Source of the DNA: Chamaesiphon minutus PCC 6605
GTDB taxonomy: Bacteria; Cyanobacteriota; Cyanobacteriia; Cyanobacteriales; Chamaesiphonaceae
Length of the DNA: 64,000 nucleotides
Assembly: GCF_000317145.1 (NCBI RefSeq)
Contig: NC_019697.1
Location: 2,294,001-2,358,000 of the forward strand
Direction: 5' to 3'
Positions 5,840 to 35,295 of the stretch are shown one piece after another. The stretch's first letter is position 1; every line of letters starts with the position of its first letter. The notes below the pieces were generated by a model, which had not been told where the DNA came from, did not search any database, and was given only the letters and a program-made list of their open reading frames with translations. The translations under genes and the position numbers were made by a program.

Positions 5840-6000
5840 GCTTGAGCGAAAAGGAACGTGCGTTACTACCAGAACATCCTGCTGGTTTAGTCGAACTGGC
5901 TGATGCCGATCTAAACACTGTTGCTGGTGGTGCTCCGCCAATCCCTTCACGCGCCTGTAGCTATAACCGGGAGTGCCGTTAATTTAGACAAAATTCAGCC

Positions 6001-6830: not shown

Positions 6831-6986
6831 CTAATATCTCTAGAATAGGCTCCCCTAGCTAGTTTGACAGCCAGAAAAGATCGGTAAAAGTCTGCTGTTG
6901 GCGATCGGAAAAGATCGGAAAAGTCGATCGTAATTTACGAATTATTCTGACTAGAATAAAGATAGATTCTGGCAGGATCTTTGCCA
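6831..6986 (+). promoter_or_regulatory. Promoter region of WD40 gene 1 (copy 1 of a triplicated leader)
   Basis: A conserved block shared with 23177-23331 and, in part, 35296-35420. It contains TTGACA at 6864-6869, two copies of GAAAAGATCGG (6874-6884, 6908-6918) that could be operators, and a TAGAAT -10-like box at 6952-6957. The conserved GGCAGGATCTTTGCC just before the ATG supplies an AGGA ribosome site. Confidence 0.6.
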
Positions 6987-9900
6987 ATGACAGCAGATGA
7001 AGCCCTAGCATTACTCGATCGACTACTCCAAGAACAGAGTCTCCGAGATCTTCAAGAGCAAGTGTTTCGTCACGCTTGGGAAGGTTGCACCTACCCCAAA
7101 ATGGCCGAGCTAATCGGTTATGACACTGGATACATCCGCGATATCGGTTACGAACTGTGGCGACAATTAACTCAGGTATTGGGCGAACCCGTCACCAAAA
7201 ATAATTTGCAAGCGGTACTGCGTCGCCAGCGAGATCGTTCGCCTAAATTAGCTATGCCAGAAGTTACCCCAGCTTCGCCCCCAGATCGAGATTGCTATTG
7301 GGGCGAGCAGATCGATGTTTCTAGCGTCATTGGGCGCGAAAATGAACTCCAGCAGTTGGCACGATGGCTGGATGATAATTCTGATGTTAATCCCCTTGAG
7401 CCACGTTGTCGGCTGATTTCGATCGTCGGTATGGGTGGCATGGGCAAAACATCAATTGCCGCTAAACTCACTCAAAAGTTAGCAGCCGAGCGCAAATTCG
7501 AGCGCATTGTCTGGCAATCCTTACGTAATGCCCCACCGTTGGATAAAATTCTCTTTCAACTTATTGCCTTTGTCTCCCACCAACAACAAACCGAATCTGC
7601 GGATACTGTGGATGCGCAGATCTCGCAATTGATGGCATATTTACGCACTACTCGCTGTCTGATTGTCTTCGATAATTTTGAATCGATTCTCTCCCATGGC
7701 GGTTATCGGGAAGGTTATGCTGGGTATAGCGAACTCCTCCGCCGGATTGCGACCGAACATCATGCTAGTTGTTTGATATTAACCAGTCGGGAAAAACCCC
7801 GAACTTTGATTCATTTAGAAGGAGAATCTGGGGCAGTTTGCACGTTGGATTTACTTGGTTTGAGCGAAATAGAAGTAGCCGAGATCGGTTCTGTGAATGG
7901 TTGTCATACAGACGATTCCAGCGATTGGCATCAGTTACAGCAATCTTACTCTGGCAACCCGCTAGCGATTAAAATTGCGGCGACGACCATTCGGGATTTA
8001 TTTGACGGTAGCGTGAGCGCGTTTTTAGAACAGGGGGTAATTCTCTGCAATGGGATTGAGGCTTTACTGGCACAGCAATTCGCTCGATTGTCCGAGATCG
8101 AGCAACAGGCACTGTACTGGTTGGCGATCGGTCGCGAAGCTGTATCGATTTCGCAACTATTAGCAGACTTTATTCTCAGCGGATTTAGATCTCAAGTTTT
8201 AGCCGCATTACAATCGTTAGATCGGCAAAGTCTAATCGAAAAAAGTTCGGGCTGCTTTACTTTGCAACCCGTAGTGATGGAGTATGTCACTGCACAATTC
8301 ATCGAGCGAATATGCGAAGAAATCACCACGTTAGATGTAGCGATTTTTAATAGCCATGCGTTGCTCCAGGCTCAGGCTCAAGACTATGTGCGCGAGAGCC
8401 AAGTGCGGATGATTTTAGTGCCGCTGGTCGAAAGACTCATGGGTAAATTGAGATCGAAATTAGAGATTAAACACCAACTCGATCGATTATTAGTGAAACT
8501 GCGATCGGAATTTGCTGGTACCGACGGCTATGCAGGTGGCAATTTAATTAACCTGTTGCGGCACTTGCACATCGACTCGACTGGCTACGATTTTTCCGAG
8601 TTGTGTATTCGGCAAGCCTATCTGCTCGGCATGAATTTACACGATACTAATTTTGCAAACACCGATTGGGCCAACTCAGTTTTTACCGAAACCTTCGGCA
8701 GTATTCACTCTGTCGCCTTTAGTCCAGACGGTCGCTGGTTGGCTAGCGGTGATTTTAACGGCGATATTCGGTTGTGGGATGCCCGCACACATCAACTGCG
8801 ATCGATCTTGCGCGGTCACACCAATTGGTTACGAGCGTTAACTTTCAGCCCCGATAGTCGAACGCTAGCCAGCGGTGGTTTTGACTGCACCATCCGTCTC
8901 TGGGATGTTAATACTAGTGAGTGCTTGCGGACATTTGCCGATCGGACACAGGCGATCCGATCGCTGGCATTCAGTCCCGACGGCAACATCTTAGTCAGTG
9001 GCAGTGACGATATGTTAGCCAGCGGTAGCGATAACTGCACCGTGAGACTCTGGGATGTTAATACTGGTGAGTGCTTACAGAAATTCGCCGACTCTACCGA
9101 AGCAATCTACTCAGTAGCATTCAGTCCTGACGGTCGAACCATTGCCAGTGGTGATACCGATTCAAACATTCGGCTTTGGAATATCCACAAAGAACGATGC
9201 GTTGGAACATGGGAGACTCATCAAGGCAAAGTCTTTGCAGTAGCATTTAGTCCAGATGGTCGAACCATTGCCAGCGGGGGGGATGATGCTACCGTCAAAC
9301 TCTATAATACCAGTAATGGCGAGTGTTTGAGAACTTGTTTGGGACATAGCGACGGATTGAAGTCGGTAATCTTTAGTCAAGATGGCCAAACGCTCATCAG
9401 CGGTGGCAAGGATCGCAACATCAAGCTGTGGGATGTTGGGACTGGACGGTGTTTGAAAACGCTGGTTGGGCATGAGGATTGGATCTGGTCGATCGCTTGC
9501 AATTCGGCTCATCAGATCGTGGCTAGTGGTAGTGAAGATCGCACGGTGAGACTCTGGAGTCTGAGTACTGGCAAGTGTCTGAGAGTTTTTCAGGGCTACG
9601 CAAATACGATCTATGCGATGGCTTTTGTCCCCCCACCTCTACCAGATATTGCCGCTCCTCAAGCGGTGCTAGCCACTGGATACTTTGGCGGAGCATTACG
9701 ACTCTGGAATATCCAAGACGTTGGCGTAGCCTCCCCTTCGGGGAATCGATCTACGAGTTTGAGCGGTCATAATAGTTCCATCAGAACGGTAGCCTTCAGT
9801 CCAGATGGTCAACTCCTTGCTAGTGGGGGGAACAGTGACAACCCAATTATCAAACTTTGGCGCGTCCGGGATGGCCAGTGCTGTCACATTTTAACTGGAC

Positions 9901-10643
9901 ATACCGATGGCTTGTGGTCGGTGGCATTTAGCCCCGACGGTCGAATCCTGGCCAGTAGTAGCCCAGACCATACAATTAGACTGTGGAGTACTTTGACTGG
10001 TGAGTGTCTCCAGATTTTAGCAGGGCATACAGATTGGGTCACATCGGTCGCCTTTATTGCCTCACCACCGATGCTGGTGAGTGCTAGTCGCGATCGCACG
10101 ATTAGAATTTGGGATATCCAGACGGGTGAATGTATGCGGACTTTACAGGGGCAGCAGCTAGCGCTTGTGTCGATCGCGGTGAGTCCTAATGGCGATATTT
10201 TGGCTAGCGGTAGTGTCGATCGTACCGTGGCTCTTTGGAATATTAATACTGGTGAATGTTTCCAAGTTTTGCCCGGTCATCAAGCGTTCGTTTGGTCTGT
10301 GGCTTTGAGCACCGATGGACGATGGTTAGCCAGTGGTAGCTATGACGGTACCGTCAGGCTTTGGGATGTGCATAGCGGGAAATGTCTAAGGATCTTACAG
10401 GGGCATACGCATGGTGTTTTCGCAGTGGCGTTTGTGCCACACTACAGCGCGGATTTTGCCAATCGGCAGTTGCTTGCTAGTACTGGTACTGATGCCACTA
10501 TTAGATTCTGGGATGTTGCTACGGGTGAATGCGTCAAAATCATTCGATCGCCGCGACCCTATGAAGGAATGAATATTCGGGGCATCCAAGGATTGACTGC
10601 TGCCCAGCAGGAAAATTTAACAGCTTTAGGAGCAATTATATAG
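6987..10643 (+). CDS. NB-ARC NTPase with C-terminal WD40 repeats (paralogue 1)
   Basis: A 1218-residue STAND-type signalling NTPase. An N-terminal helix-turn-helix-like domain (MTADEALALLDRLL to about residue 85) is of the kind seen on vWA/MoxR-associated and NB-ARC proteins. The NB-ARC core has Walker A GMGGMGKTS (about 150), Walker B CLIVFDNFES (about 225), a TSREKP sensor and a GNPLAIKI motif. About 14 WD40 blades follow from AFSPDG near residue 575 to the end, enough for two seven-bladed propellers. The start at ATG 6987 is chosen because the paralogue at 23332 begins identically and both share the upstream AGGA. A TTG two codons earlier is possible. A palindromic repeat encodes VGVASPSGNR inside blade 8. 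Such proteins are usually sensors in defence or regulated cell death; that role is inferred. Confidence 0.93.
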   Translation: MTADEALALLDRLLQEQSLRDLQEQVFRHAWEGCTYPKMAELIGYDTGYIRDIGYELWRQLTQVLGEPVTKNNLQAVLRRQRDRSPKLAMPEVTPASPPDRDCYWGEQIDVSSVIGRENELQQLARWLDDNSDVNPLEPRCRLISIVGMGGMGKTSIAAKLTQKLAAERKFERIVWQSLRNAPPLDKILFQLIAFVSHQQQTESADTVDAQISQLMAYLRTTRCLIVFDNFESILSHGGYREGYAGYSELLRRIATEHHASCLILTSREKPRTLIHLEGESGAVCTLDLLGLSEIEVAEIGSVNGCHTDDSSDWHQLQQSYSGNPLAIKIAATTIRDLFDGSVSAFLEQGVILCNGIEALLAQQFARLSEIEQQALYWLAIGREAVSISQLLADFILSGFRSQVLAALQSLDRQSLIEKSSGCFTLQPVVMEYVTAQFIERICEEITTLDVAIFNSHALLQAQAQDYVRESQVRMILVPLVERLMGKLRSKLEIKHQLDRLLVKLRSEFAGTDGYAGGNLINLLRHLHIDSTGYDFSELCIRQAYLLGMNLHDTNFANTDWANSVFTETFGSIHSVAFSPDGRWLASGDFNGDIRLWDARTHQLRSILRGHTNWLRALTFSPDSRTLASGGFDCTIRLWDVNTSECLRTFADRTQAIRSLAFSPDGNILVSGSDDMLASGSDNCTVRLWDVNTGECLQKFADSTEAIYSVAFSPDGRTIASGDTDSNIRLWNIHKERCVGTWETHQGKVFAVAFSPDGRTIASGGDDATVKLYNTSNGECLRTCLGHSDGLKSVIFSQDGQTLISGGKDRNIKLWDVGTGRCLKTLVGHEDWIWSIACNSAHQIVASGSEDRTVRLWSLSTGKCLRVFQGYANTIYAMAFVPPPLPDIAAPQAVLATGYFGGALRLWNIQDVGVASPSGNRSTSLSGHNSSIRTVAFSPDGQLLASGGNSDNPIIKLWRVRDGQCCHILTGHTDGLWSVAFSPDGRILASSSPDHTIRLWSTLTGECLQILAGHTDWVTSVAFIASPPMLVSASRDRTIRIWDIQTGECMRTLQGQQLALVSIAVSPNGDILASGSVDRTVALWNINTGECFQVLPGHQAFVWSVALSTDGRWLASGSYDGTVRLWDVHSGKCLRILQGHTHGVFAVAFVPHYSADFANRQLLASTGTDATIRFWDVATGECVKIIRSPRPYEGMNIRGIQGLTAAQQENLTALGAII
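9719..9748 (-). repeat. Palindromic repeat inside WD40 gene 1
   Basis: Copy of the window's short palindromic repeat, read in frame as VGVASPSGNR where a blade normally ends in a G-x-C-L turn. The same insertion is present in paralogue 2 (26076), so it predates the duplication. Confidence 0.8.
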
Positions 10644-10774: not shown

Positions 10775-12258
10775 CATTCGTGACAAGTTAAGAAAATCAG
10801 AGATTTGTCAAAAGGGTAATAAAAAGATGCCAAACTGTTTCTAGTCAAGAGTTTGAGGGAATAGAGGCCTGATGACCAGCCGCCGAAGAAGTAACCGCGA
10901 CCACGCCAAAAAGAACCACCAACCAGGTGTGGAAGATGAGATCATCGCCGCTCAAGTAGAGGCTTTATTGACACCAGCAATTTTCAATCAAAGTCATTAC
11001 TACCGACAATTAGGGCTGAGAAATCGGCTGTTAAATTTACCCTTGATGATGGCAGCAGTGCTGACGCTACTGTGGCGGAATGTGCCAGGAGTCAGAGAAC
11101 TAAGCCGAATGTTAGGGCGAGAAGGATTTTTGTGGTGTGAGCCAACACAAGTAAGTCAACAGGCGATTGCACAAAGATTTCTGACCTTTCCATCTGAGTT
11201 ATTTGAGAGAGTGTTTAAGGAATTACTGCCAGAATTTAGAGTGAAGTGGCACCAGAGAAAACAGCGATTGTTGCCACAAAGCATTGAATTTGCTCAAGCA
11301 AAATTTGAGCGGATTTGGGCATGTGATGGCTCCACATTGGAAGCGATATTCAAGAAATTAGATAGCTTATCTGATGTGCCAATCGGACAACTAGCGGGAA
11401 AAATGGGAGTAGTCATAGATTTGGTGACGAGATTGCCGATTGAAATCTGGTTTAGAGAAAATCCCAAAGCTTCAGATGTTAATTTTGAGAAAGATATCCT
11501 GAATTTAGTAACATCGGGCACTTTATTGCTCTTGGATCGAGGCTTCTATCATTTCCAATTTTGGCAAGAATTAATTAACAGAGATATTCATTTTATTACT
11601 CGATTAAAAAAAGGTGCATCGCTACAGATAGAGCGAGTATTTAGCAATAGTTATAGTATCCGTGACCGAATAGTGCGGATGGGGTCTGGCACCAAAAAGA
11701 CTCCATATATAACTGTAAGATTAGTCGAAATTAAAGTGGGTAAAGTCTGGTATTCTTATCTAACTAGTGTACTCGACCCATTGAATCTTCCTCCCTATGT
11801 AGTCGCCGATTTGTACGGAAGACGGTGGCGAATTGAAGAGGCTTTTAATACTGTTAAACGATTGCTCGGGTTGAGTTATTTATGGACTGGTTCAGTTAAT
11901 GGAATTAAATTACAGATGTGGGGGACTTGGCTGTTTTATGCAGTTCTAGTCGATTTAGGTGATGCTGTAGCTGATGAATTATCTCTCCCATTCGACCGCA
12001 TTTCTTTAGAGATGATTTATCGAGGTCTTTATCACTTTCATGTAGCTCATCATAAAGGTTTAGCTGCCAATCCAGTCACCTATTTTGCTGCCCCAGAGAA
12101 TCAAGATTTAGGTATTGTTAAAACTGTTCGTAAACCTAATGTTAAGTTAATTATTGCACCTTTTCCTGATTCTATGAGTCGAACAGACAATTTTTTCTTC
12201 GACTCATCGCCTCAAGCCCGCTTGACAAGTGCGATCGCTTCTTAACTTGTCACTAATG
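10775..12258 (+). mobile_element. IS4-family insertion sequence, 1484 bp
   Basis: Left end CATTCGTGACAAGTTAAGAA and the complement of the right end CATTAGTGACAAGTTAAGAA match at 19 of 20 positions. A 9-bp direct repeat CATCCAGGA flanks it (10766-10774, 12259-12267). It holds a single transposase gene and is apparently intact. A 199-bp element with the same ends lies at 53257-53455. Confidence 0.94.
10872..12245 (+). CDS. IS4-family transposase
   Basis: 457 residues. The DDE pattern is visible: WACDGSTLE (first Asp), LLLDRGFYHF (second Asp) and YGRRWRIEEAFNTVK, an exact Y-x2-R-x3-E-x6-K signature of the IS4 family. The stop lies 13 bases before the end of the element, overlapping the right inverted repeat. 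The start ATG at 10872 follows a GAGGCC stretch. Length and order are usual for the family and there is no sign of decay. Confidence 0.95.
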   Translation: MTSRRRSNRDHAKKNHQPGVEDEIIAAQVEALLTPAIFNQSHYYRQLGLRNRLLNLPLMMAAVLTLLWRNVPGVRELSRMLGREGFLWCEPTQVSQQAIAQRFLTFPSELFERVFKELLPEFRVKWHQRKQRLLPQSIEFAQAKFERIWACDGSTLEAIFKKLDSLSDVPIGQLAGKMGVVIDLVTRLPIEIWFRENPKASDVNFEKDILNLVTSGTLLLLDRGFYHFQFWQELINRDIHFITRLKKGASLQIERVFSNSYSIRDRIVRMGSGTKKTPYITVRLVEIKVGKVWYSYLTSVLDPLNLPPYVVADLYGRRWRIEEAFNTVKRLLGLSYLWTGSVNGIKLQMWGTWLFYAVLVDLGDAVADELSLPFDRISLEMIYRGLYHFHVAHHKGLAANPVTYFAAPENQDLGIVKTVRKPNVKLIIAPFPDSMSRTDNFFFDSSPQARLTSAIAS

Positions 12259-13611: not shown

Positions 13612-15041
13612 GGTTCTCCAGTACCTAATGTGCTAATTAAATGAGAATCGAGGCAGTACAAGAGAAAGAAAATAAAATAAATATGTCAAAACTGCTGACG
13701 AGGAGAGGAAAAGCAAGATAATGAAGAGAGGAAGAAATAGTAAGAAGAGCGGCGGGCAGGGCAAGTGGCAACAAAAAAGGAACTCAAGCTACTAACGGAG
13801 CTATTAGGAATAGAAGGAATGCGAGTAGAGTCGCAGCGACAATATGAAGGAATAGGCATCATCTTACAGGTAGAAGCAATAAAGAAAGAAAGCAAATGCC
13901 ATAGATGCGGAACGAAGAGTAGTAGCTTACATCAGAATAATAGATACATAGTAAAAGATTTGCCGTGGGGAGAGCAGCAAGTTCACCTAGAAATAAACAG
14001 AAGACAATTTAAATGTAAAAAATGTCAAAAACCATTTAGCGAACAACTAGAATTTGTTAAAGGCAGAAGAACATATACTTCAAGACTAGCTAAAAAAATC
14101 CTAGCAGAAGCACTAGAAGGAGATATTCAGAGCGTAGCTAGAACAGGAGTAATGACGACAGCAGAAATAGAGAGAATAATTGAAGACGCAGCAGCAGAGC
14201 TAAACGGAGAAAAGCCAACGGATTTAAGAAAACTGGGAATAGATGAAATAGCAATGGTAAAAGGACAAGGAAAATATTGTGCAGTATTAGTAGATATAGA
14301 GCGAGGAAAATTATTAGCAATAATCGAAAGCAGAAAGAGTGAAGAAATAGAGAAAATCCTGAAAGGATGGGGGACAGAGGTACTGGAAAGGATCGAAGAA
14401 GTCAGCATAGACTTATGGAAAGGGTATAAAAGCTTAGCGATAGAAGTGATGCCTAATGCTCAAGTAGTAGCAGACAGATTTCATGTAACAGCGCAAATAA
14501 ATAGTGAGTTAGATAAGCTGAGAAAACAAGAAAAAAGAGCGATAGAGGCTAAACTTAAATCCGCAAAGACATTAGAGCAAAAGAATGAATACACTCGGCA
14601 ATTGGCAGTAATAAAATCGAGTAAATATGCGCTGCTAAAAAATGAAAAAGAGTTAAGAGAGGAGAAAGAACAAGAGAAGCTCAAGCAGGTTAGAGAAGAA
14701 TTTGCCAACATTAGGGCAGCACATCTACTCAAAGAAAAATGGAGAGAGATAATGGAAAAAACAACATCGTGGATGAGAGGACTATTGAAAATTAGACATT
14801 GGCTGGTAAGAGCCAAGCAGCATTTGCCAAATAGTTGTGGCACAATCTCGCGATGGTTAACAGAGATAGTTGCTTACTTTGATGAGCGAACTACTAGTGG
14901 TGTAGTTGAGGGAATTAATAATAAGATTAAGCTCATCAAGCGTACTGCTTATGGCTTCACTAATTTCAACAACTTCCGAAACAGATGCTTGCTAACTTGG
15001 AGATTCAATTATTGATTTAGCACATTAGGTACTGGAGAACC
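13612..15041 (+). mobile_element. ISL3-family insertion sequence, 1430 bp
   Basis: Perfect 25-bp terminal inverted repeats beginning GGTTCTCCAGTACC. The direct repeat AAACAACC (13604-13611 and 15042-15049) is 8 bp, the length typical of ISL3. Inserted in a GNAT gene. Confidence 0.96.
13765..15015 (+). CDS. ISL3-family transposase
   Basis: 416 residues from a GTG start. The N-terminal zinc finger CHRCGTKS...CKKCQKPF is followed by an ISL3-type DDE domain: LGIDEIAMVKG (Asp), VSIDLWKGY with VVADRFHV (Asp), and SGVVEGINNKIKLIKRTAYG (Glu). A lysine/glutamate-rich helical stretch separates the acidic residues. The start is uncertain because no good ribosome site precedes it and upstream in-frame alternatives are not obvious. 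Base usage is AT/purine-rich compared with neighbouring genes, consistent with foreign origin. Confidence 0.93.
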   Translation: MATKKELKLLTELLGIEGMRVESQRQYEGIGIILQVEAIKKESKCHRCGTKSSSLHQNNRYIVKDLPWGEQQVHLEINRRQFKCKKCQKPFSEQLEFVKGRRTYTSRLAKKILAEALEGDIQSVARTGVMTTAEIERIIEDAAAELNGEKPTDLRKLGIDEIAMVKGQGKYCAVLVDIERGKLLAIIESRKSEEIEKILKGWGTEVLERIEEVSIDLWKGYKSLAIEVMPNAQVVADRFHVTAQINSELDKLRKQEKRAIEAKLKSAKTLEQKNEYTRQLAVIKSSKYALLKNEKELREEKEQEKLKQVREEFANIRAAHLLKEKWREIMEKTTSWMRGLLKIRHWLVRAKQHLPNSCGTISRWLTEIVAYFDERTTSGVVEGINNKIKLIKRTAYGFTNFNNFRNRCLLTWRFNY

Positions 15042-23176: not shown

Positions 23177-23331
23177 CATATCCTCAGAATATGCGCCCCC
23201 ACATAGTTTGACAGCCAGAAAAGATCGGAGAAAAACTGCTATTGACGATCGGAAAAGATCGGATCTTCGATTGTAATTTACGAATTATCAGGACTAGAAT
23301 AAGACTAGACATTCTGGCAGGATCTTTGCCG
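23177..23331 (+). promoter_or_regulatory. Promoter region of WD40 gene 2 (copy 2 of the triplicated leader)
   Basis: Aligned with 6831-6986: TTGACAGCCAGAAAAGATCGG, a second AAAAGATCGG, the GACTAGAATAAG -10-like box and GGCAGGATCTTTGCC before the ATG are conserved. This marks the left edge of the duplication. Confidence 0.6.
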
Positions 23332-26300
23332 ATGACAGCAGATGAAGCCTTAGCGTTACTCGATCGACTGCTTCAATCTCAAAGTCTCCGCGATATTCAA
23401 GAGCAGGTGTTTCGTCACGCTTGGGAAGGTCGCACCTACCCCGATATGGCAGAGCTAATCGGCTATGATACTGGTTATATCCGCGATATCGGCTACGAAC
23501 TGTGGCGACAATTGACTCAGGTATTGGGCGAACCCGTCACCAAAAATAATTTGCAAGCGGTATTGCGTCGCCAGCGAGATCGTTCGCCTAAATTAGCTGT
23601 GCCAGAAGTTACCCAAACTTCACCCCCAGATCGAGATTGCTATTGGGGCGAGCAGATCGATGTTTCTAGCGTCATTGGGCGTGGAAATGAACTCCAGCAG
23701 TTGGAACGATGGCTGGATAACAATTCTGAAGTTAATCCCCTTGAGCCACGTTGTCGGCTGATTTCGATCGTCGGCATGGGTGGCATGGGTAAAACATCAA
23801 TTGCCGCCAAACTCACTCAAAAGTTAGCAGCCGATCGCAAATTCGAGCGCATTGTCTGGCTGTCTCTCCGCAATGCCCCACCGCTAGATAAAATTCTCTT
23901 TCAACTTATTGCCTTTGTCTCCCACCAACAGCAGACGGAACCTGCGGATACTGTGGATGCTCATATCTCGCAATTGATGGCATATTTACGCACTACTCGC
24001 TGTCTGATTGTCTTCGATAATTTTGAATCGATTCTCTCCCATGGCGGTTATCGGGAAGGTTATGCTGGATATAGCGAACTTCTCCGCCGGATTGCGACCG
24101 AACATCATGCTAGTTGTTTATTATTAACCAGTCGGGAAAAGCCCAAAACTTTGATTCATTTAGAAGGAGAATCTGGGACAGTTTGCACGTTGGATTTACT
24201 TGGTTTGAGCGAAATAGAAGTAGCCGAGATCGGTTCTGTGAATGGTTGTCATACAGACGATTCCAGCGATTGGCATCAATTACAGCAATCTTATTCTGGC
24301 AACCCATTAGCAATTAAAATTGCGGCGACGACCATTCGGGATTTATTCGACGGTAGCGTGAGCGCGTTTTTAGAACAGGGGGTAATTCTCTGCAATGGGA
24401 TTGAGGCTTTACTGGCACAGCAATTCGCTCGATTGTCCGAGATCGAGCAACAGGCACTGTACTGGTTGGCGATCGGGCGTGAAGCTGTATCGATCGCCGA
24501 ATTGTTAGCTGACTTCATTCCTAGCGGTTATCGAACGCAAGTTTTAGCCGCATTACAATCGTTAGATCGGCAAAGTTTGATTGAAAAAAGTTCGGGATGT
24601 TTTACCCTGCAACCCGTGGTGATGGAATATGTCACTGCTGTATTTATCGAGCAGATTTGCGAGGAGATTACGACATTAGATGTAGCAATTTTTAATAGTC
24701 ATGCACTGATTCAGGCTCAGACTAAAGACTATGTACGCGAAAGCCAAGTGCGGATGATATTAGTGCCGCTGGTCGATCGACTTATGGGTAAATTGCGATC
24801 GAAACCAGAAATTAAACACCAACTCGATCGATTATTAGTGAAATTGCGAACGGAATTTGCTGATACTGACGGTTATGCAGGTGGCAATTTAATTAACCTG
24901 TTGCGGCACTTACAGATCGACTCTAGTGGCTATGATTTTTCCGGTTTGTGTATTCGACAAGCTTATTTACTAGGCATGAATTTACACGATACTAATTTTG
25001 CAAACACCGATTGGGTCAACTCAGTTTTTACCGAAACCTTCAGTAGTATTCACTCTGTCGCCTTTAGTCCAGACGGTTGCTGGTTGGCTAGCGGCGATTT
25101 TAACGGTGATATTCGGTTGTGGGATACCCGCACTCAGCAACTGCAATCGATCTTCAAAGGTCACAGCAATTGGGTACGAGCGATGGCTGCCAGCCCCGAC
25201 GGTCGAACGCTAGCTAGCGGCAGCTTTGGCTGCCCCATCCGGCTGTGGGATGTCGCTACTGGTGAATGCTTGCAGACCTTCGCCAACAGCAACCAGCCAG
25301 TCAATTCAGTGGCATTCAGTCCCGACAGCAACTTATTAGTCAGTGGTTGCGATAACTTCTTCGTCAGTGGTAGCAACAATTGGACGATCGGGATCTGGGA
25401 TGTCAACACTGGCGAATGCTTGAAAACATTCGCCGACTATACCGAGGCAGTTTTTTCAGTGACATTCAGTCCCGACGGTCGATCGATCGCCAGTGGCGGT
25501 GCCGATGCAAATATTAAACTGTGGCATGTTCGCGACGGACGATGCTTTAAAACAATACCAACCCATCAAGGCAAGATCTTTGCAGTCGCCTCTAGTCCAG
25601 ATGGTTCGACCATCGCCAGTGGCGGAGAGGATGCCACCGTCAAACTCTATGATGTCAACACGGGCGAGTGTTTGAGAACTTATGTGGGACATAGTAATGA
25701 GTTGAAGTCGGTCATCTTCAGTCAAGATGGTCAAACGCTCATTAGTAGCGGCAAGGATCGCAACATCAAGCTCTGGGATGTGCGGACGGGACGGTGTTTG
25801 AAAACACTGGTCGGGCATGAGGATTGGATTTGGTCGATCGCTTACGTTGGCGTAGCCTCTCGGAACGAGAATGCGACTCATCAGATCTTGGTTAGTGGCA
25901 GTGAAGATCGCACGGTCAGGCTGTGGAGCGTGAGTACTGGCAAATGTTTGAGAATTTTCCAAGGCTATGCAAATACGATCTATGCGATGGCTTTTGTCCC
26001 CCCATCTGCTGATGCTCGACCGATGCTAGCTGCTGGATACTTTGGTGGCGGGTTACGACTGTGGAATATTGAGGACGTTGTCGTAGCCTCCCCTTCGGGG
26101 AATCGATCTACGAGTTTGAGCGGTCACAATAGTTCCATCAGAACAGTTGCATTCAGCCCAGACGGTCGAATCCTTGCTAGTGGGGGTAGCGGTGACGACC
26201 CGATTATCAAACTTTGGCGCGTCCGCGATGGGCAGTGCTGCCACATTCTATCCGGACATACCGATGGCCTTTGGGATGTGAAATTCAGTCCCGACGGTCG

Positions 26301-26994
26301 AATTCTCGCCAGTAGTAGCTCAGACCATACAGCTAGGCTTTGGAATCCCCTGACGGGTGAATGTCTCCAGATTTTGGCAGAGCAAATAGATTGGCTTACA
26401 TCGGTCGCCTTTATTTCTCCAGAGATTTTGGCTAGTGCGAGTCGTCGCACGATCTCGTTTTGGCAGATCCAGACGGGTGAATGTATCCATACTTGGGAGG
26501 AGTACCAGCTAGGGCTGGTCTCGATCGCGGTAAATCCTAGTGGCGATATTTTAGCAAGTGGCAGTATCGACCATACCGTGGCACTTTGGCACGTTAATAC
26601 AGGTGAATGTTTCCAAGTTTTACCCGGTCATACACATTTTGTGCGATCGGTGGCATTTAGCCCTGATGGTAAAATCCTTGCCAGTGGCAGCTATGACAGT
26701 ACCGTTCGGCTCTGGGATGTGCAGAGCGGGAAATGTTTGAAGGTATTGCAAGGGCATAGAGATGGCGTGTTCGCAGTGGCTTTCCTACCGCACTACAACA
26801 AGGATTTTGCCGAGCGTCAGTTGTTAGCTAGCACGGGTACTGATGCCACGATTAGATTCTGGGATGTTGCTACAGGGGAATGCGTCAAAATCATTCGATC
26901 TCCGCGACCCTATGAAGGGATGAATATTCGGGGTATCCAAGGATTGACTGCGGCCCAGCAGGAAAATTTAACAGCTTTAGGCGCGATCCGATAG
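23332..26994 (+). CDS. NB-ARC NTPase with C-terminal WD40 repeats (paralogue 2)
   Basis: 1220 residues and the same architecture as the gene at 6987: HTH-like N-terminus, Walker A GMGGMGKTS, Walker B CLIVFDNFES, GNPLAIKI, then about 14 WD40 blades. The N-terminal and NTPase halves are nearly identical. Differences concentrate in the blades, for example in the loops of blades 2, 3 and 11, as expected if the propeller is the recognition surface. It carries two palindromic-repeat insertions: the old one shared with paralogue 1 (26076) and a new one in blade 7 (25845). The start is placed at ATG 23332 by comparison with paralogue 1. Confidence 0.93.
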   Translation: MTADEALALLDRLLQSQSLRDIQEQVFRHAWEGRTYPDMAELIGYDTGYIRDIGYELWRQLTQVLGEPVTKNNLQAVLRRQRDRSPKLAVPEVTQTSPPDRDCYWGEQIDVSSVIGRGNELQQLERWLDNNSEVNPLEPRCRLISIVGMGGMGKTSIAAKLTQKLAADRKFERIVWLSLRNAPPLDKILFQLIAFVSHQQQTEPADTVDAHISQLMAYLRTTRCLIVFDNFESILSHGGYREGYAGYSELLRRIATEHHASCLLLTSREKPKTLIHLEGESGTVCTLDLLGLSEIEVAEIGSVNGCHTDDSSDWHQLQQSYSGNPLAIKIAATTIRDLFDGSVSAFLEQGVILCNGIEALLAQQFARLSEIEQQALYWLAIGREAVSIAELLADFIPSGYRTQVLAALQSLDRQSLIEKSSGCFTLQPVVMEYVTAVFIEQICEEITTLDVAIFNSHALIQAQTKDYVRESQVRMILVPLVDRLMGKLRSKPEIKHQLDRLLVKLRTEFADTDGYAGGNLINLLRHLQIDSSGYDFSGLCIRQAYLLGMNLHDTNFANTDWVNSVFTETFSSIHSVAFSPDGCWLASGDFNGDIRLWDTRTQQLQSIFKGHSNWVRAMAASPDGRTLASGSFGCPIRLWDVATGECLQTFANSNQPVNSVAFSPDSNLLVSGCDNFFVSGSNNWTIGIWDVNTGECLKTFADYTEAVFSVTFSPDGRSIASGGADANIKLWHVRDGRCFKTIPTHQGKIFAVASSPDGSTIASGGEDATVKLYDVNTGECLRTYVGHSNELKSVIFSQDGQTLISSGKDRNIKLWDVRTGRCLKTLVGHEDWIWSIAYVGVASRNENATHQILVSGSEDRTVRLWSVSTGKCLRIFQGYANTIYAMAFVPPSADARPMLAAGYFGGGLRLWNIEDVVVASPSGNRSTSLSGHNSSIRTVAFSPDGRILASGGSGDDPIIKLWRVRDGQCCHILSGHTDGLWDVKFSPDGRILASSSSDHTARLWNPLTGECLQILAEQIDWLTSVAFISPEILASASRRTISFWQIQTGECIHTWEEYQLGLVSIAVNPSGDILASGSIDHTVALWHVNTGECFQVLPGHTHFVRSVAFSPDGKILASGSYDSTVRLWDVQSGKCLKVLQGHRDGVFAVAFLPHYNKDFAERQLLASTGTDATIRFWDVATGECVKIIRSPRPYEGMNIRGIQGLTAAQQENLTALGAIR
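25845..25875 (-). repeat. Palindromic repeat in WD40 gene 2, absent from paralogue 1
   Basis: CGTTGGCGTAGCCTCTCGG then AACGAGAATGCG inside blade 7, read as YVGVASRNENAT. Paralogue 1 has IACNSAHQ at this point, 24 bases shorter. Confidence 0.88.
26076..26105 (-). repeat. Palindromic repeat in WD40 gene 2, shared with paralogue 1
   Basis: CGTTGTCGTAGCCTCC then CCTTCGGGGAATCG, read as VVASPSGNR in blade 8. Same site as 9719-9748. Confidence 0.8.
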
Positions 26995-29542: not shown

Positions 29543-30076
29543 TTACCCACCTATCCGCATCCGACGTAACAACGAGCGCGCGAGCGACTCCTCCCGCAGG
29601 ACAATATCGAGCTGACCCTGCATCCCCACCCTCACGGAACAGGATTTTGCTGCTTGCTTTAAGGCTAAAGTTTGGGGTTGAATCGTCACTGCATATAACG
29701 TCGGTTGGCTCAACTGTGTCACGTTCGCGTAGCGTCCGCCGTGCGGAATCGAATCAGTCACCATCGCAGGTTGGGTGGCGATCGTGGTTACTTGCCCTTT
29801 TAATGTCCCATACTCACCAGCAGGACAAGCTGTCACGCGCATTTGAGCGATTTGCTGCGGTGCGATTCGATCGATCTCGTCAGCAGGAACGAGTGCTTGA
29901 ATGGTGCGATTGGGAGTAACGATCGCGCTCGCCTGGGTGGTGCTGCGATGGGGGATTTTGGTCGTGAGGGCGATCGTGCCTCCGAGCAAAGCCACTACAC
30001 CAAGGCTGCCAAACCGCGCCCACGGACTGAGTGGTGGTAGCAGATCCTTTAAATTGGGTAATGAATTGGATGTCAT
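29543..30076 (-). CDS. HlyD-like membrane fusion protein, short form
   Basis: 177 residues from ATG 30076 (MTSNSLPNLKDLLPPL). One N-terminal membrane span (FGSLGVVALLGGTIALTT) is followed by periplasmic beta-rich segments: TIQALVPADEIDRIAPQQ, GTLKGQVTTIATQPAMV, and the C-terminal SVRVGMQGQLDIVLREESLARSLLRRM that is typical of HlyD/LktD-like adaptors. The long coiled-coil hairpin of classical HlyD is missing. It lies downstream of the C39 exporter in the same direction and is most likely its adaptor. A palindromic repeat at 29722-29751 inserts DSIPHGGRYANV. Confidence 0.8.
   Translation of the reverse strand: MTSNSLPNLKDLLPPLSPWARFGSLGVVALLGGTIALTTKIPHRSTTQASAIVTPNRTIQALVPADEIDRIAPQQIAQMRVTACPAGEYGTLKGQVTTIATQPAMVTDSIPHGGRYANVTQLSQPTLYAVTIQPQTLALKQAAKSCSVRVGMQGQLDIVLREESLARSLLRRMRIGG
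29722..29751 (-). repeat. Palindromic repeat in the HlyD-like gene
   Basis: CGTTCGCGTAGCGTCCGCC then GTGCGGAATCG, read in frame as DSIPHGGRYANV. Confidence 0.8.
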
Positions 30077-30137
30077 AGAATTAACCTCTAATAGTAAATC
30101 CGGTTTACAAACACTTTTTGTTGCTAGCACAAACCCG

Positions 30138-30263
30138 TTGCCCTCACCCCGCAGTCGCCTCCGGCTCCTGCTCCCCTCTGTCTTGTCTCGCTATACCGTC
30201 GGGAAACAAAGGCGTGCGCGAGCCGCTCCCAAGCTTGGGAGAGGGGTTGGGGGTGAGGGCGAA
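30138..30263. repeat. Imperfect inverted repeat between exporter and adaptor genes
   Basis: GCCCTCACCCC near 30141 and GGGGGTGAGGGC near 30252 face each other, enclosing GC-rich sequence with smaller stems. It separates two genes that would otherwise be adjacent in one operon. It may be an inserted non-autonomous repeat. Confidence 0.5.
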
Positions 30264-30310
30264 TAAGCTGGGTATGTAAACAGGATTTGGTATAACTGGA
30301 TCGATCGCCC

Positions 30311-32497
30311 CTACGGCATCAACGCCAATTCTGGGGTCAAAAACGATCGATGTAATCCTTCCCGTCGCCGCAGTTCTTCCGGTGTCCCTTGACTCACCAC
30401 CTGCCCCTGCTCCAGCATCACCACCCAATCGCAAGCCCCAATTACCTGGGGTCTATGGCTGATTAATATTGTCGTCTGCCCCCGCCGATGCTGTTGCAAC
30501 CGTTCTAATAACATTGCCTCACTCACGGGATCGAGTGCTGACGTGGATTCATCCAAAATCAAAATTGCTGGATTGGCTAACAATGCCCGCGCGATCGCTA
30601 ACCGTTGCCGTTGCCCCCCCGATAGATTCGCCCCAAACTCACCCAACACCGTTTGATACTTGTCTGGCAATTGCTCAATAAACTCATCCGCCCCCACAAT
30701 CTCACAAGCCCGCACGATTTGCTCGAAACTCACCTGGGGATAGCTAAAGCGGAAATTATCGACGATCGATCGACTCCAAAAATGGGCATCTTGGGGCACC
30801 AATACCACCTGCTGCCGCAAACAATCTAATGCCAGATCGCCGCGATTCTCGTGCCGAGACGCTTCGCGAACGTACATCCCATAACGAATATTGCCGGACT
30901 GCGCTTGATACAAGCCCGATAGCAATTTTGCTAACGTACTTTTGCCGCAACCCGATCGACCGATTAACGCCGTCATCCGACCACCTGGAATCGTCACATC
31001 TAAATCCTCTAACAAATCCACTCGTCCCGAATGATGAAATCGCAATTTCTCACAATAAATATCCGCCGTCGCGGATAGCTCCACCCAAGGCTTGTGGGCA
31101 TCTGGCGCGTCTTCTGGAGTCGCATCCATCACCTCACCCAAGCGTTGCAAAATCACCTGAGCGCGAATGAATTCATCCACAATCCCGATCGCGGCTAACA
31201 AGAACCCAAAGAAATTCCCACTCATGCCGCTATAAGCCAACAATTGCCCCACACTCAACCGCTGACTAATCACCAAATAACTGCCCAACCACAACAGCCC
31301 GATACTCACCAAACTCGATAAAATGCCCGTTACTGTGCCGCTATACAGTTCCAACTTCATCGTCCCCCACCCCAAATGCGCCAACCGACTGAAATTCGCT
31401 TGATATTCCTGCCAAGCTTGAGTTGTCGCTTGAGTGGTTTTGAGTACCTGAACGCCTTGCACGGTTTCGACGAGAAAGCCTTGATTCTCGGTACCTTGAA
31501 TAATTAGATCGCGAGTTTTCTGGCGAATCGCTGGTAAGAAGAGAAAATTAACTCCCACCAGCACGGCAAACATCACTGTCGAGGCAATAGTTAACTCCCA
31601 ACTATAAAACAGCATTAATGCTAGCGAAACCACGGCAATAAAAAACTGGCTCGGCAAACCTAACACTATCTGCGCCACTAATGAATGCACCGCCGACACA
31701 TCTGCAATCCGGCTGACTACCTCACCACTGCGTCGCCCTTCAAAATAAGATAGCGGTAAATGTAATAGCTTCTGTCCATATTCGAGTACCAATCCCATCT
31801 GCAACCGTTGCCCAAAATAGCCAATTAACTGCGCCTGAATCAGATTAATGACACTCCGAATCAGCGTCATCGCCACCACACCCAAAGCTACTATCAGCAG
31901 CAATTCCGTATCGCCCCGCACCAACACATCATCCGTCAACAATTGCATCATTAACGGCGAAGCCAATGCCAGTAAGCCAATGACGACGTTTAAACCGATC
32001 GCTTGTATCAACAAACCCCGATCGGGCCACACCCGTTTGACAAACTTGCCAAACCCCGTCACTTTGTCCTCAGTCTGTTGGTAAAACGTCTCCGTCGGCG
32101 AGAGCAACAGCATCGCCCCATTCGTCCAACCCGCCATCAATTCCGCCTCACTGAGATAGCGCAAGCCAATACTAGGATCGGCGACAATATATCGATTGCG
32201 GCGATTTTTGCCGTAGAGAACGACCCAGTGATAGCCTTTCCAATGGACGATCGCGGGCAACGGTGCTTGCGCCAGATTAGCTAAAAGTTGGGGAGAAGCT
32301 TTGACTTGCCGCACTTGGAAACCGAGAGATTGGGCACCTCGTCCGAGTCCGAGCAGAGTGGTGCCGCGCGATCGAGTGCCTGCCAGTTCGCGGATGCGAC
32401 CGATGCTGAAGTTGCGACCGTGGAATTTAGCAACGGTGGCAAGGCAGGCAGCACCGCAGTCTTCTTCGGATTGTTGGAGAATGAGTGGATAACGCAT
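30311..32497 (-). CDS. Peptidase-containing ABC transporter (C39, double-glycine exporter)
   Basis: 728 residues. The N-terminal C39 peptidase has EEDCGAACLA (Cys14), GYHWVVLYG (His90) and VADPS (Asp107), a complete catalytic set. A six-helix transmembrane domain follows (about 160-450). The ATPase has GRSGCGKST, LSGGQRQRLA and ILILDES. It should cleave leaders after Gly-Gly and export the product. The four proteins encoded just upstream all end their leaders in EGG, so they are the obvious substrates; the lanthipeptide leaders (AGG) are a second possibility. A palindromic repeat adds about 13 residues (MYVREASRHENRG) between RYG and DLALD, within the ATPase, between Walker A and Q-loop. Confidence 0.95.
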   Translation of the reverse strand: MRYPLILQQSEEDCGAACLATVAKFHGRNFSIGRIRELAGTRSRGTTLLGLGRGAQSLGFQVRQVKASPQLLANLAQAPLPAIVHWKGYHWVVLYGKNRRNRYIVADPSIGLRYLSEAELMAGWTNGAMLLLSPTETFYQQTEDKVTGFGKFVKRVWPDRGLLIQAIGLNVVIGLLALASPLMMQLLTDDVLVRGDTELLLIVALGVVAMTLIRSVINLIQAQLIGYFGQRLQMGLVLEYGQKLLHLPLSYFEGRRSGEVVSRIADVSAVHSLVAQIVLGLPSQFFIAVVSLALMLFYSWELTIASTVMFAVLVGVNFLFLPAIRQKTRDLIIQGTENQGFLVETVQGVQVLKTTQATTQAWQEYQANFSRLAHLGWGTMKLELYSGTVTGILSSLVSIGLLWLGSYLVISQRLSVGQLLAYSGMSGNFFGFLLAAIGIVDEFIRAQVILQRLGEVMDATPEDAPDAHKPWVELSATADIYCEKLRFHHSGRVDLLEDLDVTIPGGRMTALIGRSGCGKSTLAKLLSGLYQAQSGNIRYGMYVREASRHENRGDLALDCLRQQVVLVPQDAHFWSRSIVDNFRFSYPQVSFEQIVRACEIVGADEFIEQLPDKYQTVLGEFGANLSGGQRQRLAIARALLANPAILILDESTSALDPVSEAMLLERLQQHRRGQTTILISHRPQVIGACDWVVMLEQGQVVSQGTPEELRRREGLHRSFLTPELALMP
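30843..30872 (+). repeat. Palindromic repeat inside the exporter ATPase domain
   Basis: CGATTCTCGTGCCGAGACG then CTTCGCGAACG. Read in frame on the minus strand as YVREASRHENR. Confidence 0.85.
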
Positions 32498-32598
32498 GGG
32501 ACTGGGGGAAGATGAAGGGAATAAAGATAAAGTTGCGATCCCCCCAAATCTATGTTTTTAAGAGAGTTAGGGGGAATTGCCAGCGTTACGATCGGGCA

Positions 32599-33006
32599 TC
32601 AATTATCAGTAACTTTGAACTTCACAGTGTAGTCACCACCACCACGTCTAAGAGAAACGGTTTGATTGATATTATTGGTAGCTACCACAAAACTAAGCGA
32701 CTTAGTACCAGTTGAGCCATTCGGACTAACCAAGGTAACTACCGTTCCGCCGTTGAATACTTTACTTATACCAGGCTGCGACAAAACAGTGCCAGCCCGC
32801 ATACTAAAAGTTTTGTTCTGATTAAATGACTGGCCACCAATGACGAGAAACAATTCATCAGCGAGATCGGGATCGAGTGTTTTATTACATTTAATCTCCA
32901 AAATAGTAACCCGCTTGCCGCCTTCGAGCATTTGAGCCTGGTCTGCTGTCAATTCTGTAAACAGAGATTCTGGGAGCAGGTTGAGGTTGGATTTAGAGAA
33001 AGTCAT
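32599..33006 (-). CDS. Double-glycine leader secreted protein 1
   Basis: 135 residues. The leader is MTFSKSNLNLLPESLF, then TELTADQAQMLEGG, as in three sister genes upstream. The mature part of about 105 residues starts KRVTILEIKC and is beta-rich: DELFLVIGGQSFN, FSMRAGTVLS, VVTLVSPNGSTG, YTVKFKVTDN. One Cys and no ring-forming pattern, so it is not a lanthipeptide. It is the gene nearest the exporter and the most divergent of the four. The start is set by AAGAAAAAAC upstream and by the conserved MTFSK. Confidence 0.88.
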   Translation of the reverse strand: MTFSKSNLNLLPESLFTELTADQAQMLEGGKRVTILEIKCNKTLDPDLADELFLVIGGQSFNQNKTFSMRAGTVLSQPGISKVFNGGTVVTLVSPNGSTGTKSLSFVVATNNINQTVSLRRGGGDYTVKFKVTDN

Positions 33007-33381
33007 GATGTTTTTTCTTGGTAAATGATGGGTTTATTTGTGGAGATCGGACAAAATTAACGAGCGACTAACTCGTAAACTTGTCATTACTCCGATCGCG
33101 TTGGCGTTTAGCCTGCCGTAGCGGCGCGCGTATCTGCTAACGCAGAGGCTGTGCCTACGGCAGGCTACGCCAACGCCAACGGCGGGTGTCCCGCCGTAAA
33201 AAGCGGCGCATCGAACGGGAGGTTCCCTCCCGTTTGTGTGCGACAAGACAGCGCGACAAGACAGGCACAGCATCGGCTGTGCCAAATCGAGCGGAAGATT
33301 GCCATAAAAAGGGGAACTTTGAGCCATCTCTGGTTCCCCCTTTTAAGGGCTAGGACGGATTGCTAGCGTGACGATCGTGTA

Positions 33382-33795
33382 CTAATTAGTGACTTTGTAC
33401 GTCACTTCATACACCGAGCCAGCACCACTAACTCTGCGGGTTCTCGTGCCATTAACAGAATCAATAAAACCACCGATAAAATTAGCACCAATAGCACTAT
33501 TGCCGTCTTTTTCAAACAAGCCAACGTTAGCAGTGTTGCCACTAAAGGTCGTGCCAGCACCAGCATTCGCTACACCGCCCGTCCGGATCGAGATAGGATT
33601 GCCGAGGCGGAAGTTTTGACCGTTGATGGTAAAAAACAATTCGTCAGTGCCATCAGAATCGGCACCAGCTTTAATACAGCGAACGGTCAAAATATCGATC
33701 CGCTTGCCGCCTTCGAGCATTTGAGCCTGGTCTGTTGTCAATTCTGTAAACAGAGATTCTGAGAGAACGTTGAGATTATATTTAGAGAAAGTCAT
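33382..33795 (-). CDS. Double-glycine leader secreted protein 2
   Basis: 137 residues, with the same leader (TELTTDQAQMLEGG). The mature domain starts KRIDILTVRCIKAG, then DGTDELFFTINGQNF, GGVANAGAGTTFSGN, VGLFEKDG, and ends SVYEVTYKVTN. The pattern (one Cys, D-E-L-F-x-x-x-N-G-Q, a central A-N-x-G-x-G, a C-terminal Y-E-V-T-Y-x-V strand) recurs in copies 3 and 4 and suggests a compact beta-sandwich. Export by the C39 transporter downstream is expected. Function unknown. Confidence 0.88.
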   Translation of the reverse strand: MTFSKYNLNVLSESLFTELTTDQAQMLEGGKRIDILTVRCIKAGADSDGTDELFFTINGQNFRLGNPISIRTGGVANAGAGTTFSGNTANVGLFEKDGNSAIGANFIGGFIDSVNGTRTRRVSGAGSVYEVTYKVTN

Positions 33796-34020
33796 GATGT
33801 TTTTCCTGGTAAATGAGGAGTTATTTTGTGGAGATCGGACAAAATTATCGAGTTATTAACTCATCAACTTGTCATTACGCCGTTCGCGTTGGCGATAGCC
33901 TGCCGTTAGGCACAGCTTCGGCTTTGCCGAATCGAGCAGAAGATTGCCACGGAAAGGGGAACTCTAAGTCATCTCTAGTTCCCACTTGTTTTAGAAGATT
34001 GCCAGCGTGACGATCGCACG

Positions 34021-34407
34021 TTAATTGGTAACTTGGTACGTCACATCGTAGGTAGAGCCACCAGCGCTAACACGCTGGGTCTGTTGACCGTTGCTAGAGG
34101 CACTAAAACTGCCAACAGGGCGGCGAACAAGACTATGATTGTCGAACAAGACAACGTTCGCTGTCCCATTGAAGTTCACACCAATACCAACATTGGCAAC
34201 ACTGTCAGTCCGCATAAAGCGACGGAAATTCTGACGTTCACGATTAATGTCGAAAGACAGGTTGTCAGAACCACCACCAGCCTGAATACAGCGAACTAGC
34301 AGAATATTAATCCGCTTGCCGCCTTCGAGCATTTGAGCTTGGTCTGCGGTCAATTCTGTAAATAGAGATTCGGGGAGAAGATTGAGGTTAGATTTAGAGA
34401 AAGTCAT
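34021..34407 (-). CDS. Double-glycine leader secreted protein 3
   Basis: 128 residues from ATG 34407. An in-frame ATG 16 codons earlier exists but the conserved MTFSK start and the upstream purine-rich AGAAAAAAC favour this one. Leader TELTADQAQMLEGG, then KRINILLVRCIQAG, NLSFDINRERQNF, SVANVGIGVNFNG, VVLFDNHS and a YDVTYQVTN end. The same fold as copies 2 and 4 with different surface loops. Confidence 0.87.
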   Translation of the reverse strand: MTFSKSNLNLLPESLFTELTADQAQMLEGGKRINILLVRCIQAGGGSDNLSFDINRERQNFRRFMRTDSVANVGIGVNFNGTANVVLFDNHSLVRRPVGSFSASSNGQQTQRVSAGGSTYDVTYQVTN

Positions 34408-34710
34408 GATGTTTTTTCTTGGTAAATGATGGGTTAATTTGTGGAGATCGGACAAAATTAGGGAGTTACTAACTCATCAACTTGTCGTTACTCCGAATCG
34501 ATCGGAAGATTGCTACCTCTGTCCGCTCTGATGCAGGGTTTAGCCTGCCTTTGGTAGCAATAAAGTGGAGGAAGCGATAGAAACTCCACATCTTGTCGTA
34601 AATAGCGATCGATCGGGTTTGAGACTGTCTGCATCTGTGACATCGCTCTCCTTCGAGATGCAGCAAGGGGACACAACGGTAAAACTCCCCGCCAGTAGAT
34701 ATTTTCGACC

Positions 34711-34739
34711 GATTCTCGTTCCGAGACGCTTCGCGAACG
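34711..34739 (+). repeat. Palindromic repeat between secreted-protein genes 3 and 4
   Basis: GATTCTCGTTCCGAGACG then CTTCGCGAACG in the intergenic region. One of the few copies outside a gene. Confidence 0.8.
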
Positions 34740-34777
34740 ATCGATCCTCAATCGATCTCCAGCGTGACGATCGCACG

Positions 34778-35170
34778 TTAATTAGTAGTCCGGAACGTCA
34801 CTTCGTAGAGTGAGCCACTACCACCAACAAGTCGGGTTTGTGTGCCATTGCTAGAGGCATTAATAATGCCCATAAGGGTATTATTAGAGACCTTCGTATC
34901 AAATAAGCGAACTTCCCCATCTCCGTCGAAGTTCCCACCCACACCAACATTGGCAACACTACCAGCCTGCATACTTATCGTGCGACCGAACATAACATTC
35001 TGGCCATTAACGGTAAAAAACAGTTTGTCAGAACCATTGCCAGCCTTAATACAGCGAGCGGACAGAATCGTAACCCGCTTGCCGCCTTCGAGCATTTGAG
35101 CTTGGTCTGCTGTCAATTCCGTAAACAGCGATTCTGGGAGAAGATTGAGGTTAGATTTAGAGAAAGTCAT
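34778..35170 (-). CDS. Double-glycine leader secreted protein 4
   Basis: 130 residues from ATG 35170, the first gene of the tandem set. Leader TELTADQAQMLEGG, mature KRVTILSARCIKAG, DKLFFTVNGQNVMFG, SVANVGVGGNFDGD, VRLFDTKVSNN, LYEVTFRTTN. The 5' untranslated part (GGAGATC-[TG]-GACAAAATTA-type sequence and two stem-like ACTAACTCAT blocks) is repeated ahead of all four genes, showing tandem duplication of whole gene plus promoter. Confidence 0.87.
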   Translation of the reverse strand: MTFSKSNLNLLPESLFTELTADQAQMLEGGKRVTILSARCIKAGNGSDKLFFTVNGQNVMFGRTISMQAGSVANVGVGGNFDGDGEVRLFDTKVSNNTLMGIINASSNGTQTRLVGGSGSLYEVTFRTTN

Positions 35171-35295
35171 GATGTTTTTTCCTGGTAAATGATGGGTTAA
35201 TTTGTGGAGATCTGACAAAATTAGTGAGCTACTAACTCATCAACTTGTCCTTACTCCGATCTGGTAGAAGATTGCTATGGAAGGTTTAACTTCTC

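Follow-up and report, generated by a model that had tools for sequence, protein, structure and literature searches.

The biofilm operon of Synechococcus elongatus PCC 7942 encodes four tandem proteins with double-glycine leaders, EbfG1–4, beside the C39-peptidase exporter PteB. In the reports on it (PMC4997328, PMC9981879) the mature EbfG proteins are given as 6–7 kDa with no known domain, and three of the four form amyloid. The Group III cyanobacterial bacteriocin clusters (Wang 2011, PMC3140520) likewise combine a short-type C39 exporter, HlyD and several precursors of 28–164 amino acids (aa), whose core peptides are described as little conserved; the main text of that paper contains neither the word "crystallin" nor the term "C2 domain". 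Here we describe a related cassette from Chamaesiphon minutus PCC 6605. It lies in a stretch of 64,000 nucleotides (contig NC_019697.1, positions 2,294,001 to 2,358,000; hereafter the window, whose numbering is used throughout) and consists of four double-glycine-leader genes, W1–W4, a C39 exporter and an HlyD-like gene. It resembles the EbfG operon in having four tandem leader-bearing proteins beside a C39 exporter, and the likeness of the exporters rests on an EbfG-type operon of another genome (L077), whose exporter is 60% identical to that of the window and groups with it. It differs from EbfG in its mature parts, predicted C2 domains of 98–107 residues without profile similarity to EbfG-type proteins, and in its shortened adaptor. 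Of the parts of a Group III cluster it has the exporter and the precursors, with HlyD only in an internally deleted form.

Small double-glycine proteins are common in cyanobacteria and are mostly filed as bacteriocins, whereas EbfG, the one set considered here with a tested role, serves biofilms. An earlier note on this DNA had put the cassette forward as a candidate for an undescribed system. This was too strong, because exporters with tandem double-glycine proteins are already described (PMC3140520, PMC4997328) and the C2 fold is known. As far as the open-access literature was searched, C2 domains as the cargo of a double-glycine exporter are new; the shortened adaptor and the loss of the Ca2+ site were not searched on their own.

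The four leader-bearing genes were confirmed as ATG-initiated frames of one family on the minus strand at 32599–35170, with starts at 35170, 34407, 33795 and 33006. The gene order is W1, W2, W3, W4, C39 exporter, HlyD-like gene. The earlier note had let the region run to 35218; the genes are indeed present, but 35218 is a longer TTG start of W1. It had also placed an exporter and an HlyD-like adaptor downstream, of which the exporter proved to have all three domains and the adaptor to be internally deleted. A fifth paralogue, W5, lies about 8 kb to the left of the window and adjoins a LanM gene and another C39 exporter, which is 30% identical to the exporter of the cassette. The parts of the cassette are:

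35206..35257, minus strand: conserved, hairpin-capable element upstream of W1 (folding z-score -3.5)
34778..35170, minus strand: W1, double-glycine leader of 30 aa and C2-like mature domain of 100 aa (profile match; one of five Ca2+-ligand positions acidic)
34443..34494, minus strand: conserved, hairpin-capable element upstream of W2 (z -3.2)
34021..34407, minus strand: W2, double-glycine leader and C2-like mature domain of 98 aa (presumed orthologue of C. polymorphus Cp1; one of five ligand positions acidic)
33830..33881, minus strand: conserved, hairpin-capable element upstream of W3 (z -2.1)
33382..33795, minus strand: W3, double-glycine leader and C2-like mature domain of 107 aa (structure modelled; four of five ligand positions acidic)
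33042..33093, minus strand: conserved, hairpin-capable element upstream of W4 (z -4.7)
32599..33006, minus strand: W4, double-glycine leader and C2-like mature domain of 105 aa (most diverged copy, modelled; one of five ligand positions acidic)
30311..32497, minus strand: C39-peptidase ATP-binding cassette (ABC) exporter of the short type, 728 aa (PF03412, ABC_membrane and ABC_tran; exporter tree)
29543..30076, minus strand: mini-HlyD, 177 aa, an N-terminal part joined to a C-terminal part (HlyD alignment; C-terminal match to TIGR01843; ratio of nonsynonymous to synonymous substitution rates, dN/dS, 0.25–0.29)

The C2 fold is familiar mainly from animal and plant proteins that bind Ca2+ and membranes. 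In searches of Pfam and NCBIfam the mature parts matched no family. The C2 profile PF00168 did not match any of W1–W5, one leaderless relative reached it at E 0.095, under the cut-off, and a profile search of the PDB gave no match. A structure of the W3 mature part was predicted from the four window sequences and two from C. polymorphus. It was all beta, with a predicted local distance difference test score (pLDDT) of 91.7 and a predicted template modelling score (pTM) of 0.85. When the model was compared with the PDB by Foldseek, all 11 matches at E ≤ 0.001 were C2 domains or perforin, which contains one; lower rows included the non-C2 titles nitric oxide synthase and tardigrade peroxidase (E 6e-3 to 8e-3). 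With a structural aligner the best PDB match covered 99 of 107 residues at 2.3 Å, with a Z of 10.7; of the 50 rows listed, most were a C2 domain or a known C2-containing protein. The model of W4 was weaker (pLDDT 80.9) and had a C2 domain as its top PDB match at E 1.2e-3. A fold search of BFVD gave no match at E ≤ 1e-3. The mature parts of W3 and W4 are thus predicted to be C2 beta sandwiches, and those of W1 and W2 are assigned to the fold by alignment; the single fold expected in the earlier note is borne out by the models of two of the four proteins. The mature parts of W1–W4 contain one Cys each, as had been noticed. They are 33–54% identical in five of the six pairs of window copies, and in a set of six sequences all agree at 12 mature positions. 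Compared with the C2 superfamily (PF00168; Munc13, perforin, dysferlin and others), the window proteins are alike in predicted fold, and their exported relatives also in the acidic Ca2+-site pattern, whereas the window copies differ in being a lone domain behind a double-glycine leader, in having no Pfam C2 match and in having mostly lost the Ca2+ site. The finding would extend the C2 fold by an exported branch in bacteria.

Rates of change were compared between orthologues that are presumed, having been paired by mature similarity. The dN/dS of the mature parts was 0.76 for W2/Cp1 and 1.34 for Cp2/X2; by Fisher tests (p 0.38 and 0.69) neither value differed significantly from 1, while in the same comparison the exporter gave 0.07–0.10 and the leaders 0 and 0.16. 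Fast divergence of the mature domains, as claimed earlier, is therefore seen relative to the exporter (about 0.8–1.3 against 0.07–0.10), but these ratios do not demonstrate strict positive selection. The reading frames were open in all nine genes across three genomes.

We also looked at the Ca2+-ligand positions, with columns placed by the synaptotagmin motifs and column 2 ambiguous by one residue. Seven of the eight cassette proteins keep one or two of the five acidic positions, and W3 keeps four; among the exported relatives, 14 of 15 keep four or five (W5 all five) and one, G568b, keeps two. Loops 1 and 3 are shorter in most cassette proteins. The net charge is positive in seven of the eight cassette proteins (zero in X2) and negative in 11 of the 15 exported relatives. 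The ancestral exported C2 domain probably carried an acidic Ca2+ site. In many C2 domains loops 1 and 3 have no acidic Ca2+ ligands, and domains without such ligands often bind anionic surfaces or proteins. With the Ca2+ site lost and the charge basic, Ca2+-independent binding to anionic surfaces would therefore be expected.

The leaders behave quite differently from the mature parts. As the earlier note had stated, they are nearly identical: W1, W2 and W4 agree over residues 1–30 and W3 differs at four positions. At the DNA level, 3–7 of about 20 synonymous sites differ between the leaders of the window genes, as against 0–4 of about 70 nonsynonymous sites, so selection maintains the leader protein sequence. 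Recent gene conversion as the sole cause of the identity was rejected on the same grounds. The leaders of W1–W4 gave no match to the Nif11/NHLP profile. For the CTB family bacteriocin model NF038167 a weak leader match was obtained with W4 (16.6 bits) and W2 (11.7 bits), under the 32-bit cut-off, and none with W1 and W3.

Conservation extends upstream of the genes. Nine genes from three genomes were aligned over 113 columns, of which the final 13 are coding, and the mean column identity was 89%. The 6.76 Mb genome has exactly five copies of the motif TTGTCNGATCTCCACAAA, one in front of each of W1–W5; with two mismatches allowed the motif was found at two extra places elsewhere, and a reversed control at one. 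Each gene therefore has its own copy of a shared element, and the placement of the motif (5/5), together with the constraint on the leaders, argues that the array is not a chance pattern. The upstream stretch can form a hairpin that has GGAG/CTCC as its outer stem and is whole in seven of the nine genes, and the stretch folds better than shuffled sequences in all nine (z -2.1 to -4.7; X1, L020:9465-9522, was folded without its first two bases). No covariation was seen, 0 of 18 pairs being changed on both sides, so an RNA structure is not supported in that way, and the element may equally well be a DNA operator.

The window exporter contains a C39 peptidase (PF03412, E 5.7e-35), an ABC membrane and an ATPase domain. 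In a search that scored at most two candidates per genome, the nine best matches outside the three cassettes of the window type (those of the window, C. polymorphus and the genome G091) were 60–70% identical. In the eight of these loci that were read, the cargo beside the exporter consisted of other kinds of double-glycine protein, one to four per locus. Two of these proteins match beta/gamma-crystallin PF00030 over the cut-off (E 4.7e-10 and 2.5e-8), and four neighbour loci have one family in common, from which five scanned proteins gave no Pfam match. Double-glycine beta/gamma-crystallin-like proteins were noted beside exporters of this group at L070, L073 and L075 (the label of L073 was given by eye, its Pfam matches being weak and to PF03995), and a second double-glycine family, with leaders ending in ISGG, at L071, L072, L074 and L076. 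A literature search listed no paper on the double-glycine crystallin-like or ISGG-leader families. With predicted C2 domains and crystallins as the cargo of one exporter group, the question of toxins or matrix becomes directly testable. We also noticed an in-frame 8-residue insert in the ATPase part of the window exporter (around 30855–30872), absent from C. polymorphus and G091; its core recurs at three places in the window.

In a tree of 32 exporters the relatives formed one group (99/100), within which the C2 cassettes were sister to the exporter of the EbfG-type operon L077 from genome G036 (97/92). The tree was rooted at the midpoint, with the outgroup L007 on a very long branch; the label "CTB_other" (18 rows) was given by eye, and of two such loci scanned L081 was over the cut-off and L078 under it, while L088 had no cargo. 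The sister position of L077 is less sure because of its long branch. The printed N-terminal peptides of EbfG1, EbfG2 and EbfG4 each aligned best with a different L077 protein, just behind the leader, with scores of 66, 25 (weak) and 38; there was no control set for this matching. The L077 cargo also carries AQNIG and A-x-NI motifs, which PMC9981879 describes for EbfG.

The HlyD-like protein aligns only with residues 6–61 and 338–456 of a 460-aa relative, and thus the middle of about 276 residues is absent. In HlyD this middle part holds the lipoyl part and the hairpin. The shortened form is present in all three cassettes of the window type, under purifying selection (dN/dS 0.25–0.29), while in the other exporter-linked C2 clusters the HlyD frames are 500–541 aa long (5/5). 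No close full-length version was found elsewhere in the C. minutus genome, the best being 25–26% identical; C. polymorphus has a full-length relative elsewhere at 47% identity. Either another HlyD would complete the channel or the cargo would end in the periplasm. Mini-HlyD offers a natural experiment on the capabilities of an adaptor that has no middle part. An in-frame 8-residue insert in mini-HlyD (around 29727–29750) is shared with G091 and absent from C. polymorphus, and its core is found once in the window.

The distribution of the C2 proteins was examined in two genome samples. In the phylum, 10 of 386 genomes had a match at E ≤ 0.001, one of which (G263, L032) was judged a chance match, as its frame carries an internal stop. 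In the order, 25 of 388 genomes had a match at E ≤ 1e-5; one second match (G501 C189) was left out of the reading. Leader-bearing copies, judged by eye like the Sec-type signals, were present in 12 of the 25 (G000, G386, G091, G125, G488, G556, G568, G612, G658, G660, G664 and G668), and in eight of these a C39 exporter was adjacent. Absence of this linkage elsewhere had been named beforehand as the outcome that would speak against the system. That outcome did not occur: the linkage was found in 8 of the 388 genomes of the order, the window genome included. In the other four leader-bearing genomes no C39 exporter was seen in the 14–18 kb around the locus. The remaining 13 genomes have C2 forms without a double-glycine leader, one of them (L111) with a Sec-type signal. 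In another leaderless protein (L114:1009-1788) the C2 domain follows a stretch that by eye resembles a beta/gamma-crystallin domain; this protein thus links two folds, each of which is also found behind double-glycine leaders. In four of the five exporter-linked clusters outside the Chamaesiphon type, double-glycine precursors of other sorts are encoded together with those of the C2 proteins, and near four of the five there is a TPS-domain gene (PF05860, E 1.7e-46 to 7e-62), a domain type known from haemagglutinin-like adhesins. The cassette itself is present in 2 of 11 genomes of the family. A contig search of genomes gave one locus, in C. polymorphus; among viral contigs none of nine stretches examined was confirmed, and tblastn of plasmids with P0010 gave no match.

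The cassette in G091 lies in a different family, whose rpoB differs from that of the window genome at 81% of synonymous sites (saturated) and whose 16S rRNA gene is 90% identical. The G091 exporter differs from that of the window at only 21% of synonymous sites, and an 18-kb region of G091 shares 12 stretches of at least 500 bases with the window, ten at 85–95% identity and two, in a WD40-repeat gene, at 71%. Because the G091 cassette is far closer than rpoB and 16S, the comparison points to horizontal transfer of the cassette and its neighbours between the lineages, in either direction.

With a probability of roughly 0.5, we read the array as a set of exported C2 scaffolds that would work like EbfG, as surface or matrix proteins. 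From the leader, the gene order and the protein family, the adjacent exporter would use its C39 domain to cut the four precursors after Gly-Gly and would move the cleaved proteins out of the cytoplasm. Each precursor would yield one beta sandwich of the C2 type, about 100 residues long, by prediction for two and by alignment for the others. The mature proteins may then adhere to one another and to the cell envelope, the sheath or the substrate; the host is presumably an attached, epiphytic cyanobacterium. Most copies seem to have lost the ancestral acidic Ca2+ site and turned basic, and one conserved leader and upstream element per gene could provide a common exporter and common control for fast-changing surfaces. 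Several points weigh against this reading. Mini-HlyD lacks the part that should reach the outer-membrane channel, and no adhesin was noticed beside the window cassette, whose neighbours were not domain-scanned. The comparison with EbfG uses L077 in place of PteB, with one of its three peptide matches weak and its branch long, and between the C2 and EbfG-type mature domains hhalign gave a probability of 0.05%, that is, no profile relation. The W4 model had no PDB match at E ≤ 0.001. According to PMC10231218, moreover, an E. coli microcin exporter performs poorly at 116 residues.

A double-glycine leader with a C39 exporter is the classical bacteriocin route, and a mature dN/dS near 1 and a LanM lantibiotic cluster within 40 kb would also suit secreted C2 domains that bind and harm the membranes of competitors, their variable surfaces reflecting an arms race. 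We regard such effectors as doubtful, given that the sister exporter serves an EbfG-type operon and that a plain Ca2+ site is kept in most relatives; moreover, a lone C2 domain is not known to have a killing part. As in the earlier note, no immunity gene is evident: the lists of open reading frames of the three cassettes show no further common gene as a candidate, although a distant one is possible. The surface or matrix role is favoured over a bacteriocin because of the EbfG-type relative of the exporter, the TPS genes nearby and the lack of a visible immunity gene. About as doubtful is a release between the two membranes, where the C2 domains would bind lipids: the consistently shortened adaptor under purifying selection, the full-size HlyD frames of the other five clusters and the want of a close full-length HlyD elsewhere in C. 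minutus suggest it, yet the distant HlyD proteins of this genome could complete the channel, and C. polymorphus does have its 47% relative. It is improbable that the variability is functionless and the extra copies are decaying duplicates under relaxed selection. The mature dN/dS values not distinguishable from 1 and the loss of the Ca2+ site in most copies would agree with decay, but the frames are open in all nine genes, conservation is seen in leaders and upstream elements as well as at 12 invariant mature positions, and W3 was modelled with confidence. Peptides modified by LanM enzymes from the adjacent cluster, which the nearby LanM genes and W5 might suggest, are very improbable in view of the predicted folded C2 domain and of leaders without a Nif11/NHLP match. 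A class II lanthipeptide was rejected, in agreement with the earlier note, as each mature part has one Cys and the cassette contains no LanM, the LanM genes lying at and beyond the left edge of the window.

A wider idea goes beyond the surface or matrix role and is, in our estimate, rather unlikely. C39 exporters of the EbfG-type group might serve generally to display small beta proteins, among them C2 and beta/gamma-crystallin domains. The Chamaesiphon branch might have made of this route a fast-diversifying, Ca2+-independent set of C2 recognition proteins, exported through a new exporter design with an adaptor that has lost the hairpin, by which attached cells possibly recognize self or partner.

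The LanM lanthipeptide cluster occupies 357–3680 and 3934–4125 of the window and, beyond its left edge, L007:7926-14080 and L007:14369-15116. A LanM cluster of such a layout is described for C. minutus PCC 6605 in PMC3951391. The cluster here has two LanM genes, its precursors are of the Nif11 type (two scanned, a third by eye), and it contains a second C39 exporter, whose short 201-aa neighbour gave no HlyD profile match. Three giant proteins that closely resemble one another, identified by eye as ATPase-WD40 repeat proteins, are encoded at 6981–10643 and 23242–26994 of the window and at L007:1627-5268; they have relatives next to the cassettes of C. polymorphus and G091 and seem to belong to the region that moves. 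Three transposase-like genes, also recognized by eye, separate the LanM cluster from the cassette (4493–5818, 10872–12245 and 13765–15015), and the first of them is followed by a short remnant of a Nif11-like precursor at 5842–5982.

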